A DNA stretch of 30,983 nt from a virus: the IMG/VR virus record IMGVR_UViG_3300030390_000831, positions 1-30,983 of that record. One strand, written 5' to 3'. The notes below the pieces were generated by a model that had not been told where the DNA came from, searched no databases, and saw only the letters and a program-made list of their open reading frames with translations. The translations under genes and the position numbers were made by a program. How positions within the stretch are numbered: the stretch's first letter is position 1; the number at the start of each line of letters is the position of its first letter. This document shows, one piece after another, positions 6,508-25,343 of this stretch.

Positions 6508-6710
6508 CTCTCGATCTTTACTCTAACGCCGTTGCCCCCGAACAATCTAATCAGTTCGTCCGCTTCGGCTTCGGCTTCGTTCATGATATCCTGGTCGCCA
6601 CAAAGAGCTGCAAGGTTCAAGCTCATATTAACAAAGTCCATCAACGCTTCTATCTGCATTGAGTGCATTTGATGAAAGCCTAGTGATTCTACTTTCTTGG
6701 GATCGATCAT
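6501..6710 (-). CDS. Small hypothetical protein, end of replication operon
   Basis: A 69-aa acidic, helical protein (contains NEAEAEADELIRLFGG) with no recognised family. It is the last gene of the leftward replication operon. Its ATG overlaps the methyltransferase stop as TAATG, which argues for coupled translation. Its own stop overlaps the convergent 1376-aa gene by 7 bp, leaving no space for a terminator between the two opposing transcripts. Confidence 0.6.
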   Translation of the reverse strand: MIDPKKVESLGFHQMHSMQIEALMDFVNMSLNLAALCGDQDIMNEAEAEADELIRLFGGNGVRVKIESY

Positions 6711-7885
6711 TATAGTTCTCCTTTTTCGACCATATTAATACGTCGCCCTATCCAATTCATGACAGGAACTGCCATACTATTGCCTAACGCCTTGTATCTA
6801 TGGCCATTAGGGCAATCCTCTGGCTCTTTATTTCTCCATGGTATCCTACTAAAGTCATCGGGGAAACCCTGTAATCTCTCACATTCTTTAGGAGTGAGCC
6901 GCCTGACCGTACTGGAACAGACCATTGGCTTGGTTGCTAAGTCCGCGCCTCCCTGTCCATAGCTTGCAGTAAGAGACATCGTCACATCAGACAGAGTTGT
7001 TTCGCCTGTAGCTTTCGAAGCAGCAACTAGATCTGTAGCATCCTTGTCGTCCCGTGCTTTAACTGTGCTTGCCGTTCCGTCATCAGTGTAGTCTCCAAAC
7101 CCACGCATCCTTGAAGCAACGATAGCATGAACATCGGTAGCTGTTTGACAGGGGGACAGATCAACAAAGGGTTCTACCTGATTGCCACCGTTCTCTGGCT
7201 TACGACCAATCCAATTTCCAGGCAGAGCGTAGGTAACTAACGCCTCGGTTTCTACTCTGGAGTTTCCTGTGCGACTGAAAGGAGGGCCGACTGTAACTGT
7301 GGGGGCAACTCTTTGCCCCGCCTCTCGGCTCGGAGGAGGATTCCCCGACATGCTTTCGGGCTCAAATAAAACACTCGCGGCACGTCTCCAGTCTCCAAGA
7401 TGTCCGACAACGAACACACGTCGGCGTCGTTGTGGAACTCCGAAGAATTGTGCGTCCAGCACTCTGTAGGAGAACCCGTACCCGATTTTCCCCAACGCCC
7501 CGAGGAAGGTACCAAAATCCCTTCCTCCGTTGGAGGACAAGACACCGGGGACATTTTCCCAGACAATCCACTTGGGCTTAAATTGTTCAGCCATTGCAAG
7601 ATATGTAAGCATGAGGTTTCCTCTCGGGTCCGAGAGTCCTTTTCTAAGTCCGGCGACGCTGTAGGACTGACATGGTGTCCCGCCAACAAGAAGCTCAATT
7701 GTTCTGTCATTATTCCATTCCTTATATTTGGTCATGTCTCCATGATTTGGTATGTGTGGGTAGTGATGTTGCAACACGGCACTTGGAAAAGGGTCAACTT
7801 CACTGAACCATTGTGGTTCCCAACCCAGTGGGTGCCAAGCGGCAGTAGCCGCCTCGATGCCCGAGCATACTGATCCATACTTCAT
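6710..7885 (-). CDS. DNA (cytosine-5) methyltransferase
   Basis: A 391-aa C5 methyltransferase that would transfer a methyl group from S-adenosylmethionine to cytosine in a short target sequence. The conserved motifs are in the usual order: motif I SVCSGIEA (5-12), motif IV GGTPCQS (68-74) with catalytic Cys72, motif VI ENVPG (110-114), motif VIII QRRRR (152-156), motif IX RRLTPKECERLQGFPD (328-343) and motif X YKALGNSM (364-371). The target-recognition region lies between about 175 and 325 and includes a PGNWIGRKPENGGN segment of a kind seen in phage and prophage Dcm-like enzymes. Length is normal for the family. No cognate restriction enzyme is next to it, so self-protection against host restriction is the likely role; the target sequence cannot be read from the protein. 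The start overlaps the polymerase stop by 4 bp (ATGA). Confidence 0.93.
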   Translation of the reverse strand: MKYGSVCSGIEAATAAWHPLGWEPQWFSEVDPFPSAVLQHHYPHIPNHGDMTKYKEWNNDRTIELLVGGTPCQSYSVAGLRKGLSDPRGNLMLTYLAMAEQFKPKWIVWENVPGVLSSNGGRDFGTFLGALGKIGYGFSYRVLDAQFFGVPQRRRRVFVVGHLGDWRRAASVLFEPESMSGNPPPSREAGQRVAPTVTVGPPFSRTGNSRVETEALVTYALPGNWIGRKPENGGNQVEPFVDLSPCQTATDVHAIVASRMRGFGDYTDDGTASTVKARDDKDATDLVAASKATGETTLSDVTMSLTASYGQGGADLATKPMVCSSTVRRLTPKECERLQGFPDDFSRIPWRNKEPEDCPNGHRYKALGNSMAVPVMNWIGRRINMVEKGEL

Positions 7886-11721: not shown

Positions 11722-11933
11722 AGATCCTTGCCCCTCGGTCTAGAGTTTACCCAGTCCTCGATCTCTGTCAGAACCCAACGGCTTGACGATCTCTTACTGT
11801 GTTCGTCTCCTAGAACTATTGGCTGTGGAAAGTCTGTCTTCTGAGCAACCAACTTATAGATGTAGGACTTGGATACCCCTAACATCTGAGCTACTTCTCC
11901 TACGCGCAGTAGTCTATTAGAATGGGATGTCAT
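11718..11933 (-). CDS. AlpA-like helix-turn-helix protein
   Basis: A 71-aa DNA-binding protein. RVGEVAQMLGVSKSYIYKLV (residues 10-29) is a MerR/AlpA-type winged helix-turn-helix, followed by FPQPIVLGD and a SSRWVLTEIEDWVNSR wing typical of phage AlpA or excisionase-like proteins. Members act as transcription activators or directionality factors; no integrase is visible, so a transcription role is more likely. It overlaps the primase gene by 17 bp and the helicase gene by 4 bp, so it is made with the replication proteins. Confidence 0.85.
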   Translation of the reverse strand: MTSHSNRLLRVGEVAQMLGVSKSYIYKLVAQKTDFPQPIVLGDEHSKRSSSRWVLTEIEDWVNSRPRGKDL

Positions 11934-13440
11934 TGTTCATCTCCCTCACTGATAATTCAATTTCTTCTTGTTCGAAAGCAGGTATGTGCCAACACCTAAC
12001 TTTTGTTCTTTTGCCATCGGCCTTTTGTATGTTTTGAACACCATTGTCCCCACCCAGATCACGGATCATTTGAATAAGTTGCCCACGGTTATCAACCTTG
12101 AACCTACGGTGGTGTAGAAATTCGATTAAACCCTCGAGCTTAAACTTTGTAACTCCGTCATCTGTCCATGGTTTATTCATTTCCATCTCCTCGGGAGCCA
12201 TCGCTCGAATGTGGCTCGTGCAATAAGATTTAAGATGCTCTTTGAACTGTCCCTTGACCGTGGCTTCTTCGGGTACTTCAAGAACAGTAGCCCCCTGCAT
12301 CAACTGATTAATCATCTGCTGCCACTTCTGTGGCTTAACTGTCGGAGGCATGATGTTCATCTGCTCCATGCATGCTCGTTGCCAAAGCACTTGGTTCTGT
12401 AATTGCTCTGTTGAAATCTGTATGCGTGACCCATCAACATCCATGAAGTATACTCTAGGTTCGGATAACATGATAGTCAGTCCGCCAACACTAGGCATGT
12501 CAGGGGATTCGTTCCCTATCCCATGCTTACGACTAGCACACAGCGTAGGATCACAGTAACTTTTGAAAGGTTCTTCTTTACATTTGTACGCCCAATCCTT
12601 CTTGTCCAGGGATTTACCTAGGTTGATAACTTCGTGAGAAGGTAACGGCTCCGTACACAGCGTTCGATTAAACTCTTCTAACTTGCTCTTCCAGTTGTCA
12701 GGGTCAGATAACTTAGCATAGATACCGCATTGATACATGCAAGTATTGCGTGGTGTATCGATAGGACCATCCGCAAACAAATGTTCAAGGCAGGGCGGAC
12801 CATCGGTGAAATACTTACGTTTGCCAGAGAAGCGCAGACCTTCAAGCTCGGACTCTGTTACACGGATCTCTTCGACCGCATCGAGGAACTCGTCTAGTTC
12901 TAATGCTTCGCACTTAGCATTGAAGGCGTAGCGTTGTGGCATCTCAGCATTGAAGTAAGGCATGTTGATGAAGTTACCTACATCTCCACGCTCTGCAATT
13001 ATAGTATCTTGTTTTGGAAAGATCTCACAGCCACTGAACCCTAGAGCAATAGACATCTCAGTCAGGTAGTCTCTGATGTTAGCTGCAGGAGCCCAATCTT
13101 TTAAAAATAGATAAAGGTGAGCGCCACCTGACTTAGACCTACAGTGCATCAACGGAAGCTTTAGCTTCTGGATCTTATCTTGTAGTTCATTGTGGTTCAG
13201 ATCGTAGACGTCAATGTCTAACGCCGCAAACTTACATACATTCTCTTCGTTAATAGGTATAGCACCCACGCCCTGTTGCCCATCGATATGAGACTGGACC
13301 AGTTCGAGTGTTAAAGGGGATCGGATGATCATACTTTTGGACTCGGCTTTACCGTTGCGTCCAATGCGGCCAACTGTAGTTGTGCCGTGTGCCGATTTCG
13401 CTCCAACGAATGCGGCGAGTAGTCGTTCTGCCTGTGTCAT
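11917..13440 (-). CDS. Archaeo-eukaryotic primase (AEP)-type DNA primase
   Basis: A 507-aa probable primase or primase-polymerase. The catalytic metal-binding pair is in ALDIDVYD (D75, D77), the nucleotide-binding histidine is in RSKSGGAHLYLFL (H108), and a third conserved stretch is GCEIFPKQD (138-145). These three motifs in this order and spacing are those of phage and TOTE-type AEP primases. The middle contains a Cys-rich region with CKEEPFKSYCDPTLCASRK, a likely metal-binding primase C-terminal element. The last residues are NNDIPF, which copy the tip of bacterial SSB tails. No helicase domain is fused. It would make primers for PolA. A good ribosome site (AGGAG, 9 nt before the ATG) follows directly after the terminator at 13456-13499. 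Confidence 0.85.
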   Translation of the reverse strand: MTQAERLLAAFVGAKSAHGTTTVGRIGRNGKAESKSMIIRSPLTLELVQSHIDGQQGVGAIPINEENVCKFAALDIDVYDLNHNELQDKIQKLKLPLMHCRSKSGGAHLYLFLKDWAPAANIRDYLTEMSIALGFSGCEIFPKQDTIIAERGDVGNFINMPYFNAEMPQRYAFNAKCEALELDEFLDAVEEIRVTESELEGLRFSGKRKYFTDGPPCLEHLFADGPIDTPRNTCMYQCGIYAKLSDPDNWKSKLEEFNRTLCTEPLPSHEVINLGKSLDKKDWAYKCKEEPFKSYCDPTLCASRKHGIGNESPDMPSVGGLTIMLSEPRVYFMDVDGSRIQISTEQLQNQVLWQRACMEQMNIMPPTVKPQKWQQMINQLMQGATVLEVPEEATVKGQFKEHLKSYCTSHIRAMAPEEMEMNKPWTDDGVTKFKLEGLIEFLHHRRFKVDNRGQLIQMIRDLGGDNGVQNIQKADGKRTKVRCWHIPAFEQEEIELSVREMNNDIPF

Positions 13441-21461: not shown

Positions 21462-21504
21462 ATGGCAATCTCCTTAGTTTAATTAAATTGGTAGTAAGTA
21501 ACAA

Positions 21505-21531
21505 GTTATAGGTTCTTGCTCCATGGGTCAA
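21505..21531 (-). promoter_or_regulatory. Candidate leftward promoter of the accessory operon
   Basis: On the minus strand TTGACC (21526-21531), a short 15-bp spacer and TATAAC (21505-21510), continuing as TATAACTTGT. The mirror promoter for the terminase side has the same TTGnCC, 15-bp and TATAACTTGT layout, which supports both. Confidence 0.45.
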
Positions 21532-21565
21532 GGAAATAATTTTAGAGGGGTGAGTACAAAGATCA

Positions 21566-21739
21566 CTATATAGGCGTATTTCCCACAGGTTTTATTTTTT
21601 TTTGAAAACTAAATTCATATTAGGTGTTCTCACTGTTCTCACTGTTCTCACTACCATATTTATATACTTCAAACTAGCCCATACCTGAGAACACCTGAGA
21701 ACGTTGAGTACACTTCTTGTAGAAAAAACGCCTATATAG
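21566..21739. promoter_or_regulatory. Symmetrical divergent control region or origin with nested inverted repeats
   Basis: This gene-free stretch has a nested layout. The outer pair is CTATATAGGCGT (21566-21577) and its exact inverse (21728-21739). The inner pair is AGGTGTTCTCA (21622-21632) and its exact inverse (21686-21696). An AT-rich centre lies between them. Promoter-like elements sit just outside on both sides, pointing outward. It may be an operator for a phage repressor, a replication origin, or a packaging site near the small terminase gene; the sequence alone does not decide. Confidence 0.7.
21625..21651 (+). repeat. Three exact tandem 9-mers TGTTCTCAC
   Basis: TGTTCTCAC is repeated head to tail three times without any mismatch. 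Two inverse partial copies (TGAGAAC) occur at 21686-21692 and 21696-21702 with a 10-bp step. The pattern looks like iterons or a cooperative operator array. Confidence 0.85.
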
Positions 21740-21744
21740 AGAAG

Positions 21745-21771
21745 TTGCCCTCTCTCTTTCTTTGATATAAC
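21745..21771 (+). promoter_or_regulatory. Candidate rightward promoter for terminase small subunit gene
   Basis: TTGCCC (21745-21750), a 15-bp spacer and TATAAC (21766-21771), continuing as TATAACTTGT, about 28 bp before the ATG at 21799. It mirrors the leftward promoter at 21505-21531. Confidence 0.45.
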
Positions 21772-21798
21772 TTGTACCTAAAGAACAACGAGGAACAA

Positions 21799-22377
21799 AT
21801 GAGCTCTGTTAAAAAGAAAATAGAAAAAGAACATGGTCGCACCTTAACCAATAGGCAAACAACTTTTGCTAGGCACATAGTTGAGGGCATATATTCCAAT
21901 GCCGAATGTGCCAGAAAAGCAGGATATTCACATGATGTAGCAAACAACCAAGCTTCAAAGCTTTTGAATGGTAGGGAATACCCTCATGTATTGGAGTATA
22001 TCCAAGATCTAAGGAGTGAGAGGGAACGTCGTTATGGCGTGACAACCATTGGACAATTGGAACGATTGCATCAGCTATCTAGTGGAGCAGAGGAGGCAGG
22101 TCAGTTTTCAGCGGCTATCAATGCAGAAAAAATACGCGCCGCTCTGGGTGGTTTAACTGTTGATAGACGCGAACAAGTAAATACTATTGATCAACTATCT
22201 CGTGATGAAATTGTCGGAAGGTTGGCAGATTTACAAAAAAAATACCCTCAAGTTTTTGAGATCGAGGGGACATATAAAGACGTAACTGAGGGAGAAAAAG
22301 ATGAGCGGTCAGGAAGCGAACTTTTGGAGCACGATACGAAAAAACCTACCGAAGAAGTGCTTCGCAACGAGGATTGA
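21799..22377 (+). CDS. terS: Terminase small subunit
   Basis: A 192-aa protein that would recognise the packaging site and hand DNA to the large terminase. The N-terminal part matches the Terminase_2 pattern: LTNRQTTFARHIVEGIYSNA followed by ECARKAGYSHDVANNQASKL and a LLNGREYPHVLEYIQDLR segment. The helix-turn-helix lies around residues 35-57. The C-terminal part is helical and ends in a charged tail. The ATG at 21799 is preferred, with AGGAAC 6-8 nt upstream; an in-frame TTG at 21772 lacks a ribosome site and lies at the promoter. The large subunit gene is 4.4 kb away, beyond a block of opposite-strand genes. The last 77 bp overlap the next gene in another frame. Confidence 0.82.
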   Translation: MSSVKKKIEKEHGRTLTNRQTTFARHIVEGIYSNAECARKAGYSHDVANNQASKLLNGREYPHVLEYIQDLRSERERRYGVTTIGQLERLHQLSSGAEEAGQFSAAINAEKIRAALGGLTVDRREQVNTIDQLSRDEIVGRLADLQKKYPQVFEIEGTYKDVTEGEKDERSGSELLEHDTKKPTEEVLRNED

Positions 22378-24596: not shown

Positions 24597-24635
24597 CTAC
24601 AACTAAGTTGTAGAATATAACTTGTAGATAGTCAA
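24597..24635 (-). promoter_or_regulatory. Promoter with palindrome over the -10
   Basis: Minus strand TTGACT (24630-24635), a 17-bp spacer and TACAAC (24607-24612). A palindrome CTACAACT/AGTTGTAG (24597-24604 and 24606-24613, 1-nt centre) covers the -10. The arrangement resembles that at 23997-24029, although the operator sequence differs. Confidence 0.55.
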
Positions 24636-24935
24636 CAAGTAGAAGTAAATTAAACGAGAATATTTTCCCTAAAAATCCCCAAAAATAGAACGATATCCCT
24701 GGTCCCTGTGGGGGTTACTTATTGGTTTGCGTTCTGAAATCGTGCGTGCGCGCCGACCCCATCCCCCCTATATAAGGAGAGTACGCAGTACTATATGCTT
24801 ATATACAAGGTGTCATAAATTCATTTGGGGATAATTTCATTGCCCCTTTTACAAACCGAGGACCGCCCAAAAAATGCCCACTATATTTTCATTTGGGTTT
24901 ATAGTATGTTGTATGTAATTTCATTTGGGGTTGTT
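24636..24935 (+). promoter_or_regulatory. Non-coding leader and probable late promoter region of the packaging operon
   Basis: These 300 bp hold no convincing gene and no clear sigma70 promoter pointing right. They do hold CTATATAAGG (24768-24777), an AT-rich stretch after it, and three copies of TTCATTTGGG at 24820-24830, 24888-24897 and 24920-24930. The last copy provides GGGG six bases before the ATG at 24936. A late promoter needing a phage or modified RNA polymerase would fit, but nothing proves it. Confidence 0.4.
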
Positions 24936-25343
24936 ATGACGAAGCAGGCAGATTTCATCGATTGCGTTGATCTTTGGACCACGATCCTCCCTTATTCGAC
25001 TTTTCCTTCGAGTACGATTGCGTGGCGTTTGGTACCTGCGATTGAGAGTGGTCAGTATAAGATTTGGCATAACGAGGGTGGATCGTGTGCAGGGTTTGTG
25101 ACCTGGGCGTGGATGACGGATGAGGAGTTTGAGACGCGAGATTATTGGGGTACAGATATTTTTCGTCGAGAAACAGGTGACAAATTAGTTTTTGTTGATA
25201 TGATTGCACCCGAGGGCACTTCTGGTGTATTAGGGTTTTGTAGGGATCTTCGACGGATGTTTATCTCGGAGTTCCCAGAAGTTAAAAAGGTTTGGTCGCA
25301 TCGTGGCCAACGGCGCGGAGTTTATCCGAACAAAGGTGGCTAG
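24936..25343 (+). CDS. HlyC/RtxC-like toxin-activating acyltransferase homologue
   Basis: A 135-aa protein. ATG at 24936 is preferred; an in-frame TTG at 24825 would add a poorly conserved hydrophobic lead. Residues about 32-60 (LVPAIESGQYKIW, then AGFVTWAWM) and 83-94 (KLVFVDMIAPEG) align by eye with HlyC, whose equivalents are LPAI..NQY, AYCSWA and WFIDWIAPFG. HlyC moves a fatty acyl group from acyl carrier protein to lysines of RTX toxins. Asp88 matches the catalytic Asp92 of HlyC, but the position of catalytic His23 appears to be Ser21, so activity may be altered or lost. Homologues occur in marine phages with no toxin gene nearby; the substrate is unknown. It is the first gene of the packaging operon. 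Confidence 0.68.
   Translation: MTKQADFIDCVDLWTTILPYSTFPSSTIAWRLVPAIESGQYKIWHNEGGSCAGFVTWAWMTDEEFETRDYWGTDIFRRETGDKLVFVDMIAPEGTSGVLGFCRDLRRMFISEFPEVKKVWSHRGQRRGVYPNKGG

Follow-up and report, generated by a model that had tools for sequence, protein, structure and literature searches.

The interval upstream of terS examined in this study (positions 21,462 to 21,798) is very probably a phage replication origin, in which short repeats of the form GTnnnCA (iterons) would be bound by the winged-helix wing of the phage's own primase, with the spelling of the repeats and the residues of the wing switching together. The window analysed here (30,983 bp) is a complete IMG/VR viral record, possibly part of a longer genome, with phage genes for packaging, the portal, replication and structural proteins. 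Table 1 lists the features of the interval and of the primase gene.

Table 1. Features of the putative origin and of the primase gene in the window
Feature	Position	Strand	Remark
Leftward promoter-like element TTGACC-N15-TATAAC	21505..21531	-	
Outer-left iteron GTACTCA	21551..21557	-	Spelling as in sister phage G001
Second, degenerate site after outer-left iteron	near 21560		
Left flank CTATATAGGCGT	21566..21577	+	Conserved; constant although iterons vary
A/T-rich stretch GTTTTATTTTTTTTTGAAAAC	21589..21609	.	Kept in relatives; candidate unwinding element
Iteron B1 GTTCTCA	21626..21632	+	
Iteron B2 GTTCTCA	21635..21641	+	
Iteron B3 GTTCTCA	21644..21650	+	
Spacer separating the two iteron groups, includes ATATTTATATACTTCAAACTAGCCCA	21653..21685	.	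Conserved
Iteron C1 GTTCTCA	21686..21692	-	
Iteron C2 GTTCTCA	21696..21702	-	
Iteron C3 GTACTCA	21705..21711	-	Spelling as in sister phage G001
Right flank CTATATAGGCGT, inverted	21728..21739	-	Conserved
Rightward promoter-like element TTGCCC-N15-TATAAC	21745..21771	+	Upstream of terS
terS, small terminase subunit	21799..22377	+	Neighbour of array, not specificity factor
AEP-type primase, 507 aa, phrog_21866	11917..13440	-	Proposed origin-binding initiator
AEP catalytic domain, aa 41-172	12925..13320	-	D75, D77, S104, H108 invariant
C-terminal winged-helix domain, aa 395-487	11980..12258	-	Predicted
Beta-wing specificity segment, aa 467-481	11998..12042	-	468, 470, 480 covary with iteron bases

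The elements that an earlier, sequence-only reading described in this interval are real: an outer 12-bp exact inverted pair (CTATATAGGCGT at 21566-21577 on the plus strand and 21728-21739 on the minus strand, with no further copy in the 30,983-bp record), an inner 11-bp exact pair (AGGTGTTCTCA at 21622-21632, inverse at 21686-21696), three perfect tandem copies of TGTTCTCAC starting at 21625, 21634 and 21643, and two copies of TGAGAAC 10 bp apart at 21686 and 21696. Of 2000 randomised versions of the 337-bp interval (first-order Markov), 12 contained a 12-bp exact inverted repeat and not one contained a perfect 9-bp tandem triple. Chance does not explain the repeats, inverted pairs and mirror promoters, all of which are present. 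The proposed layout of nested repeats needed revision, because both arms share one motif and form a single set of about seven sites. The inner-group repeats all read GTTCTCA, in two orientations (B1-B3 on the plus strand, 9 bp apart, and C1-C2 on the minus strand, 10 bp apart), and two outer copies that had been overlooked, TGAGTAC at 21551 and 21705, read GTACTCA on the other strand. The array thus has the general form of a tandem 7-bp site, 5'-GTnnnCA, that recurs every 9-10 bp in two orientations; it surrounds an A/T-rich stretch and lies upstream of terS. An array scan found a single strong array in each genome checked. The outer pair and the A/T-rich stretch are elements distinct from the iterons and are largely constant. 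The array of the window is mixed, with five inner sites spelled GTTCTCA and both C3 and the outer-left site spelled GTACTCA as in the sister phage, and it looks as though it had been caught in transition between two spellings.

Outward promoter-like elements of the form TTGnCC-N15-TATAACTTGT lie on both sides of the array (21745-21775 on the plus strand and 21501-21531 on the minus strand) and are the only two occurrences in the record. Their 15-bp spacing, from which dependence on an activator had been proposed, is also retained in several relatives, where every match around the origin has exactly 15 bp between TTGnnn and a TATAAnTTG-like part. A third TATAACTTGT is found at position 24616 of the window. 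In many relatives the outer flank (window 21560-21577 and 21728-21745) reads CACTATAGG or CACTATAGACG, which resembles the core of T7/SP6-type promoters and points inward; a search for a single-subunit RNA polymerase that would use CACTATAG-like flanks gave no match, but the control gave none either, so the test was not valid. The protein encoded at 24825-25343 of the window (plus strand) matches the HlyC/RTX acyltransferase family (PF02794, E 4e-11) and adjoins a Gly/Pro-rich protein of 464 aa, upstream of terL, that is strongly divergent between close relatives.

When relatives were searched for the same array upstream of terS, the layout was found to be kept together with the flanking genes. 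In 11 loci encoding a 93-96% identical TerS, the sequence surrounding the sites is conserved and nearly all sites of a given genome are respelled together: the origins read GTACTCA in L003 and L007, GTCCTCA in L004, GTAAACA in L006, L008, L012 and L013, GTCAACA in L009, and GTTCTCA in L010 and L011. The locus L005 contains a chimeric origin upstream of terS, with mostly GTCATCA on the left-hand side and only GTCCTCA on the right-hand side. The switches affect mostly the three middle bases of the site, and the bases between sites are unchanged. Conserved flanking genes beside unconserved repeats had been named as the outcome that would count against a functional array; this is what was seen for the letters of the repeats, whereas the layout is kept. 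The changes of letters can be taken as the informative part of the comparison.

Several proteins encoded close to the array were considered as readers of these spellings. The small terminase subunit had been suggested to recognise the repeats as a packaging site, a proposal that the repeats themselves contradict: TerS is identical in L009-L013, where the repeats read GTCAACA, GTTCTCA and GTAAACA, and therefore does not set the spelling. In addition, no column of TerS tracks the repeats (best mutual information relative to entropy, MI/H, 0.28). GTTCTCA and GTAAACA phages also encode one and the same 56-aa RHH protein, which is thus not what determines the spelling. The 117-aa HTH-like accessory protein is nearly identical in G003 and G002 despite their unlike iterons, and differs between the window and G003 despite their shared iterons; the 76-aa gene adjoining the array is missing from most relatives. 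A C5 cytosine DNA methyltransferase with a variable target domain was also rejected, as the window and G006, both of the GTTCTCA type, differ in that domain, in a comparison for which few genomes contain both the methyltransferase and the origin. This enzyme (PF00145; window 6710-7885, minus strand) differs in its target-recognition part from the otherwise approximately 94-98% identical relatives G001 and G006, and is 99% identical throughout to G005; its target recognition is a putative second quickly changing specificity in these phages.

A gene-by-gene comparison of near-identical phages gave one lead, the C-terminal end of a primase encoded at 11917-13440 on the minus strand, approximately 8 kb from the array and outside the list of readers proposed earlier. 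The 507-aa protein matches the AEP family (PF22548, E 3.7e-14, above the cut-off) and has the DxD and sxH motifs, with D75, D77, S104 and H108 invariant in 43 sequences; a Pfam search of the protein found no helicase domain. Its wing motif is GVQN..K in the window and in G006 (a contig that overlaps the GTTCTCA phage G003 over 5.3 kb at 99.9%), GVQA..T in the GTAAACA phages G002 and G004, and TKVN..T in the GTACTCA phage G001, and the remainder of the primase groups the phages otherwise than the wing motif does.

Further loci were collected with primase and helicase queries, yielding 33 genomes that contain both origin and primase, and the mutual information between each variable base of GTn4n5n6CA and every alignable column of 11 phage proteins was calculated. 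With the consensus spelling of each genome set by hand from its array after the pattern had been noticed, and by judgement in G023 (TGACTCA register) and G007 (mixed sites), the best column for n6 was primase residue 470 (MI/H 0.82; next best among the 11 proteins 0.32), which accounts fully for this base in the 33 genomes (N with T, A or S with A, and H with C). The best column for n4 was residue 480 (0.43; next 0.30), a rule to which L489 is an exception, and for n5 it was residue 468 (0.41; best column of another protein 0.38), which explains the base only in part. On a tree built from primase aa 1-430, excluding the trait columns, n6 changed eight times. Phylogenetically independent pairs were all concordant for n6=T with 470=N (8/8, p=0.0078) and for n6=A with 470=A or S (6/6, p=0.031); the pairs for n4 and residue 480 (five for, one against) are not significant. 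The n6 rule is valid in two primase clades that are approximately 57% identical. It appears from this covariation that the primase is the partner of the array and that its wing reads the variable iteron bases, from which we infer physical binding.

The changes are also focal, in that near-identical phages differ almost solely in the wing codons and the iterons. Between G010 and L102 the origins differ little outside the iterons (GTCATCA versus GTATCCA), and the primase genes share 95.8% identity, falling to 75% over the wing codons; in G022 and G023 the primase genes are 96.7% identical, falling to 60-72% at the wing. The 9-kb tract with the primase gene is 96.5% identical in the first pair, and the corresponding tracts are approximately 98.6% identical in the second. 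Primases of six types and origins of six types occur within the window's own clade, and the code pairs them one to one. Among these, the orphan primases L239, L241 and L243 predict GTCATCA, GTCAACA and GTCCTCA, the spellings found in L005 (left half), L009 and L004, which contain only the origin; these are separate contigs, and the match is one of sets and not of genomes.

An AlphaFold2 model of the whole primase is moderately confident (mean pLDDT 76), and the C-terminal domain is well modelled (mean 85, core above 90) as a winged helix. Residues 467-481 fall inside its beta-hairpin wing, with 468, 470 and 480 within the modelled hairpin 465-487; the model thus points to a winged-helix domain with the specificity residues in the beta-wing. 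Foldseek with this domain returned no significant match (best E 4e-3), and a profile search of solved structures returned none. The top neighbour in VIA-align was TcpK of pCW3, with a Z of 7.0 over 80 residues (2.5 A), a score within the range of chance or common fold arrangements that is alone no proof of kinship. It was followed by the C-terminal domain of STY4665 (2IPQ), the C-terminal part of the SCCmec Cch helicase (Z 6.5) and, further down, MCM8 and ORC winged helices; the P4 alpha domain was absent among the matches listed.

Of the three functions guessed for the interval in the sequence-only reading (a master switch, a replication origin or a packaging site), the origin is favoured by the layout of the iterons, the covariation with the primase, and GC skew. 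As is characteristic of iteron origins, tandem short direct repeats are found at one place in the genome, adjacent to an A/T-rich stretch. The cumulative GC-skew check that had been suggested placed the window's minimum 151 bp from the array, which supports an origin without proving it; across 13 records the minimum lies within 0.5 kb of the array in seven and 2.5-4.8 kb to its right in six, a measure that gene direction confounds. When genes were matched for coding strand, plus-strand skew on the right of the array exceeded that on the left in 6/6 genomes for minus-strand genes (few genes) and in 5/6 genomes for plus-strand genes. This change is in the direction expected of an origin and supports that assignment.

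In the mechanism we propose, primase molecules would bind both opposed iteron groups through their C-terminal wings, with the beta-wing (aa 467-481) reading the variable bases, roughly the third by residue 470, the second by 468 and the first by 480. The A/T-rich stretch would then melt locally, the AEP domain of the primase thus placed at the origin would synthesise the first primers, and the helicases and polymerase of the phage would come next; the outward promoters may be coupled to initiation. It is also possible that the iteron sites could serve repression alongside, or in place of, initiation.

There are several potential explanations other than an origin for the array. If the primase, or a cofactor of the same specificity, mainly controlled the two outward promoters, the repeats would be operators and no origin would lie here. 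The flanking promoter-like elements with their conserved 15-bp spacing fit such a role, as does the position of one array directly upstream of the primase gene in Acinetobacter phages (see below); however, the protein that covaries best is a primase for replication, the window's skew changes direction at the array, and the two opposed iteron groups with their A/T-rich stretch resemble the ori/crr iterons of P4, so that we consider operators in place of an origin unlikely, the two roles being in any case compatible. A pac or cos site read by the adjacent TerS would account for the location directly upstream of terS, but is highly improbable given that TerS is unchanged across three spellings and varies nowhere in step with the repeats; the invariant flanks of the array could still contain a pac signal.

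Two further explanations dispense with a protein reader. The arms of the array are inverted copies that change together, as would the arms of a single-strand hairpin or RNA element varying by compensation. However, spelling is shared by tandem copies within one arm and by copies near terS in distant clades, it is tied to a protein residue, and there is no Rfam match, leaving little probability for such an element. Tandem repeats are prone to homogenisation, and the mixed arrays of the window and L005 resemble intermediates, so the concerted change might be due solely to copying between repeats by slippage or template switching. That explanation is very doubtful as a complete one, as mostly the three middle bases switch, the bases between sites stay the same, and the switches track wing residues encoded approximately 8 kb away; nevertheless, copying between repeats may spread a new spelling once the reader has changed.

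An origin read by its own primase has partial parallels in known systems. In design, the proposed system would operate in the manner of phage P4 alpha and its ori/crr iterons. The replication protein P4 alpha combines primase activity with origin binding by a C-terminal domain. The 8-bp iterons of P4, TGTTCACC (NC_001609), are often 9-11 bp apart in both orientations and are near the window's TGTTCTCA in spelling and layout; however, P4 alpha has its own helicase and iterons in both ori and crr, and the specificity of the window's group varies between near-identical phages. The window's AEP primase was not filed as P4 alpha because it has no helicase domain. A literature search with the letters of the P4 iterons returned only unrelated papers. 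ColE2 Rep acts at its own origin. ColE2-type and RepE/RepS initiators (PriCT-HTH) fuse an AEP primase to a DNA-binding domain (PMC5862659). They are likened to the window's primase by domain make-up, but are plasmid proteins with other origin layouts. TcpK of pCW3 is a winged helix whose beta-wing enters the major groove to read tandem repeats of 9 nt (PMC6137059), and TcpK-oriT (PDB 5VFX) parallels the reading of the array by the primase wing proposed here; unlike the primase, it is a conjugation accessory protein acting at oriT, with no detectable sequence relation to the primase domain. In the PLE RepA/ori and ICP1 Odn systems, the DNA-binding domain of the initiator covaries with the origin iterons, and both are exchanged together as a module (PMC8263062), but these involve satellites, a RepA_N initiator, iterons of approximately 30 bp and whole-domain swaps, compared to a handful of wing residues here.

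Cultured Acinetobacter phages encode a primase that is approximately 30% identical and have arrays of 8-bp period upstream of the primase gene; in SH-Ab 15497 and Bhz9, whose whole genomes were read, a further array lies upstream of terS. Read by eye and without statistics, spelling and wing vary together in these phages: CGGTTGC with wing GALKVNKSSVKVWY in SH-Ab 15497, DMU1, AbaSI_2 and 2AB-P; GAAACC/GTAACC with wing GAIKVNKSAVKVWY in pB23 and 53; GGAACC/GTAACC with wing GSIKVNKSAVKVWH in Bhz9 and Bhz20; and a less regular repeat set with wing SVIRVNKSSVKVWF in Barton and JeffCo. The array scan recognised no array in DSL-LC04 and MW202510, and found none above threshold in primase contigs lacking a recognised terS, save a weak one in L351. 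The Acinetobacter relatives of the primase also carry adenylosuccinate synthetase and dATP-directed hydrolase genes (SH-Ab 15497, L398, 31689-34621), which suggests a 2-aminoadenine genome pathway. When bacterial genomes were scanned for the pattern, one element was found on the Cellvibrionaceae MAG contig L533 (432-5179), which has an integrase gene; the other match, in a Prevotella MAG, was apparently a simple tandem repeat. The element on L533 encodes an 893-aa Toprim-containing replication protein beside many GTAAACA iterons, some 9 bp apart and in two orientations, and by eye the C-terminus of the protein (MVRSRIDKKMVRCF) is similar to the phage wing and has S near the position at which the code would call for A or S.

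Related phages have repeatedly switched iteron spelling and wing residues jointly, giving rise to what would be distinct origin types in nearly identical genomes. Candidate causes of this switching are competition between co-infecting relatives, satellites, and nucleases directed at origins, of which ICP1 Odn is an example; no second protein with the same wing domain, as would be expected of an Odn-like nuclease, was found among the 38,037 ORFs of the collected loci. We give roughly even chances to the proposal that a combinatorial wing code, probably under pressure from such co-infectors, satellites or nucleases, has produced mutually exclusive origin types on nearly identical genomes of marine phages, the wing and nearly all iterons switching together. 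In this code, at residue 470, N would read the base T, A or S the base A, and H the base C; at residue 480, T would go with the base A, K with T or C, and N with C; and residue 468 would influence the middle base.

No published account of such a co-switching origin and primase was found in searches of open-access literature, and what seems unusual is the frequency and legibility of specificity switching between near-identical phages. The origins of most uncultured phages are unknown; here natural variation shows a putative origin, its candidate initiator and much of the recognition code, all of which can be checked in cultured Acinetobacter phages. The relatives form a natural series of protein-DNA specificity switches, the mixed array of the window included, which makes it testable how a multi-site region and its reader change specificity jointly with function retained. 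These findings suggest an origin-level compatibility system between co-infecting phages.
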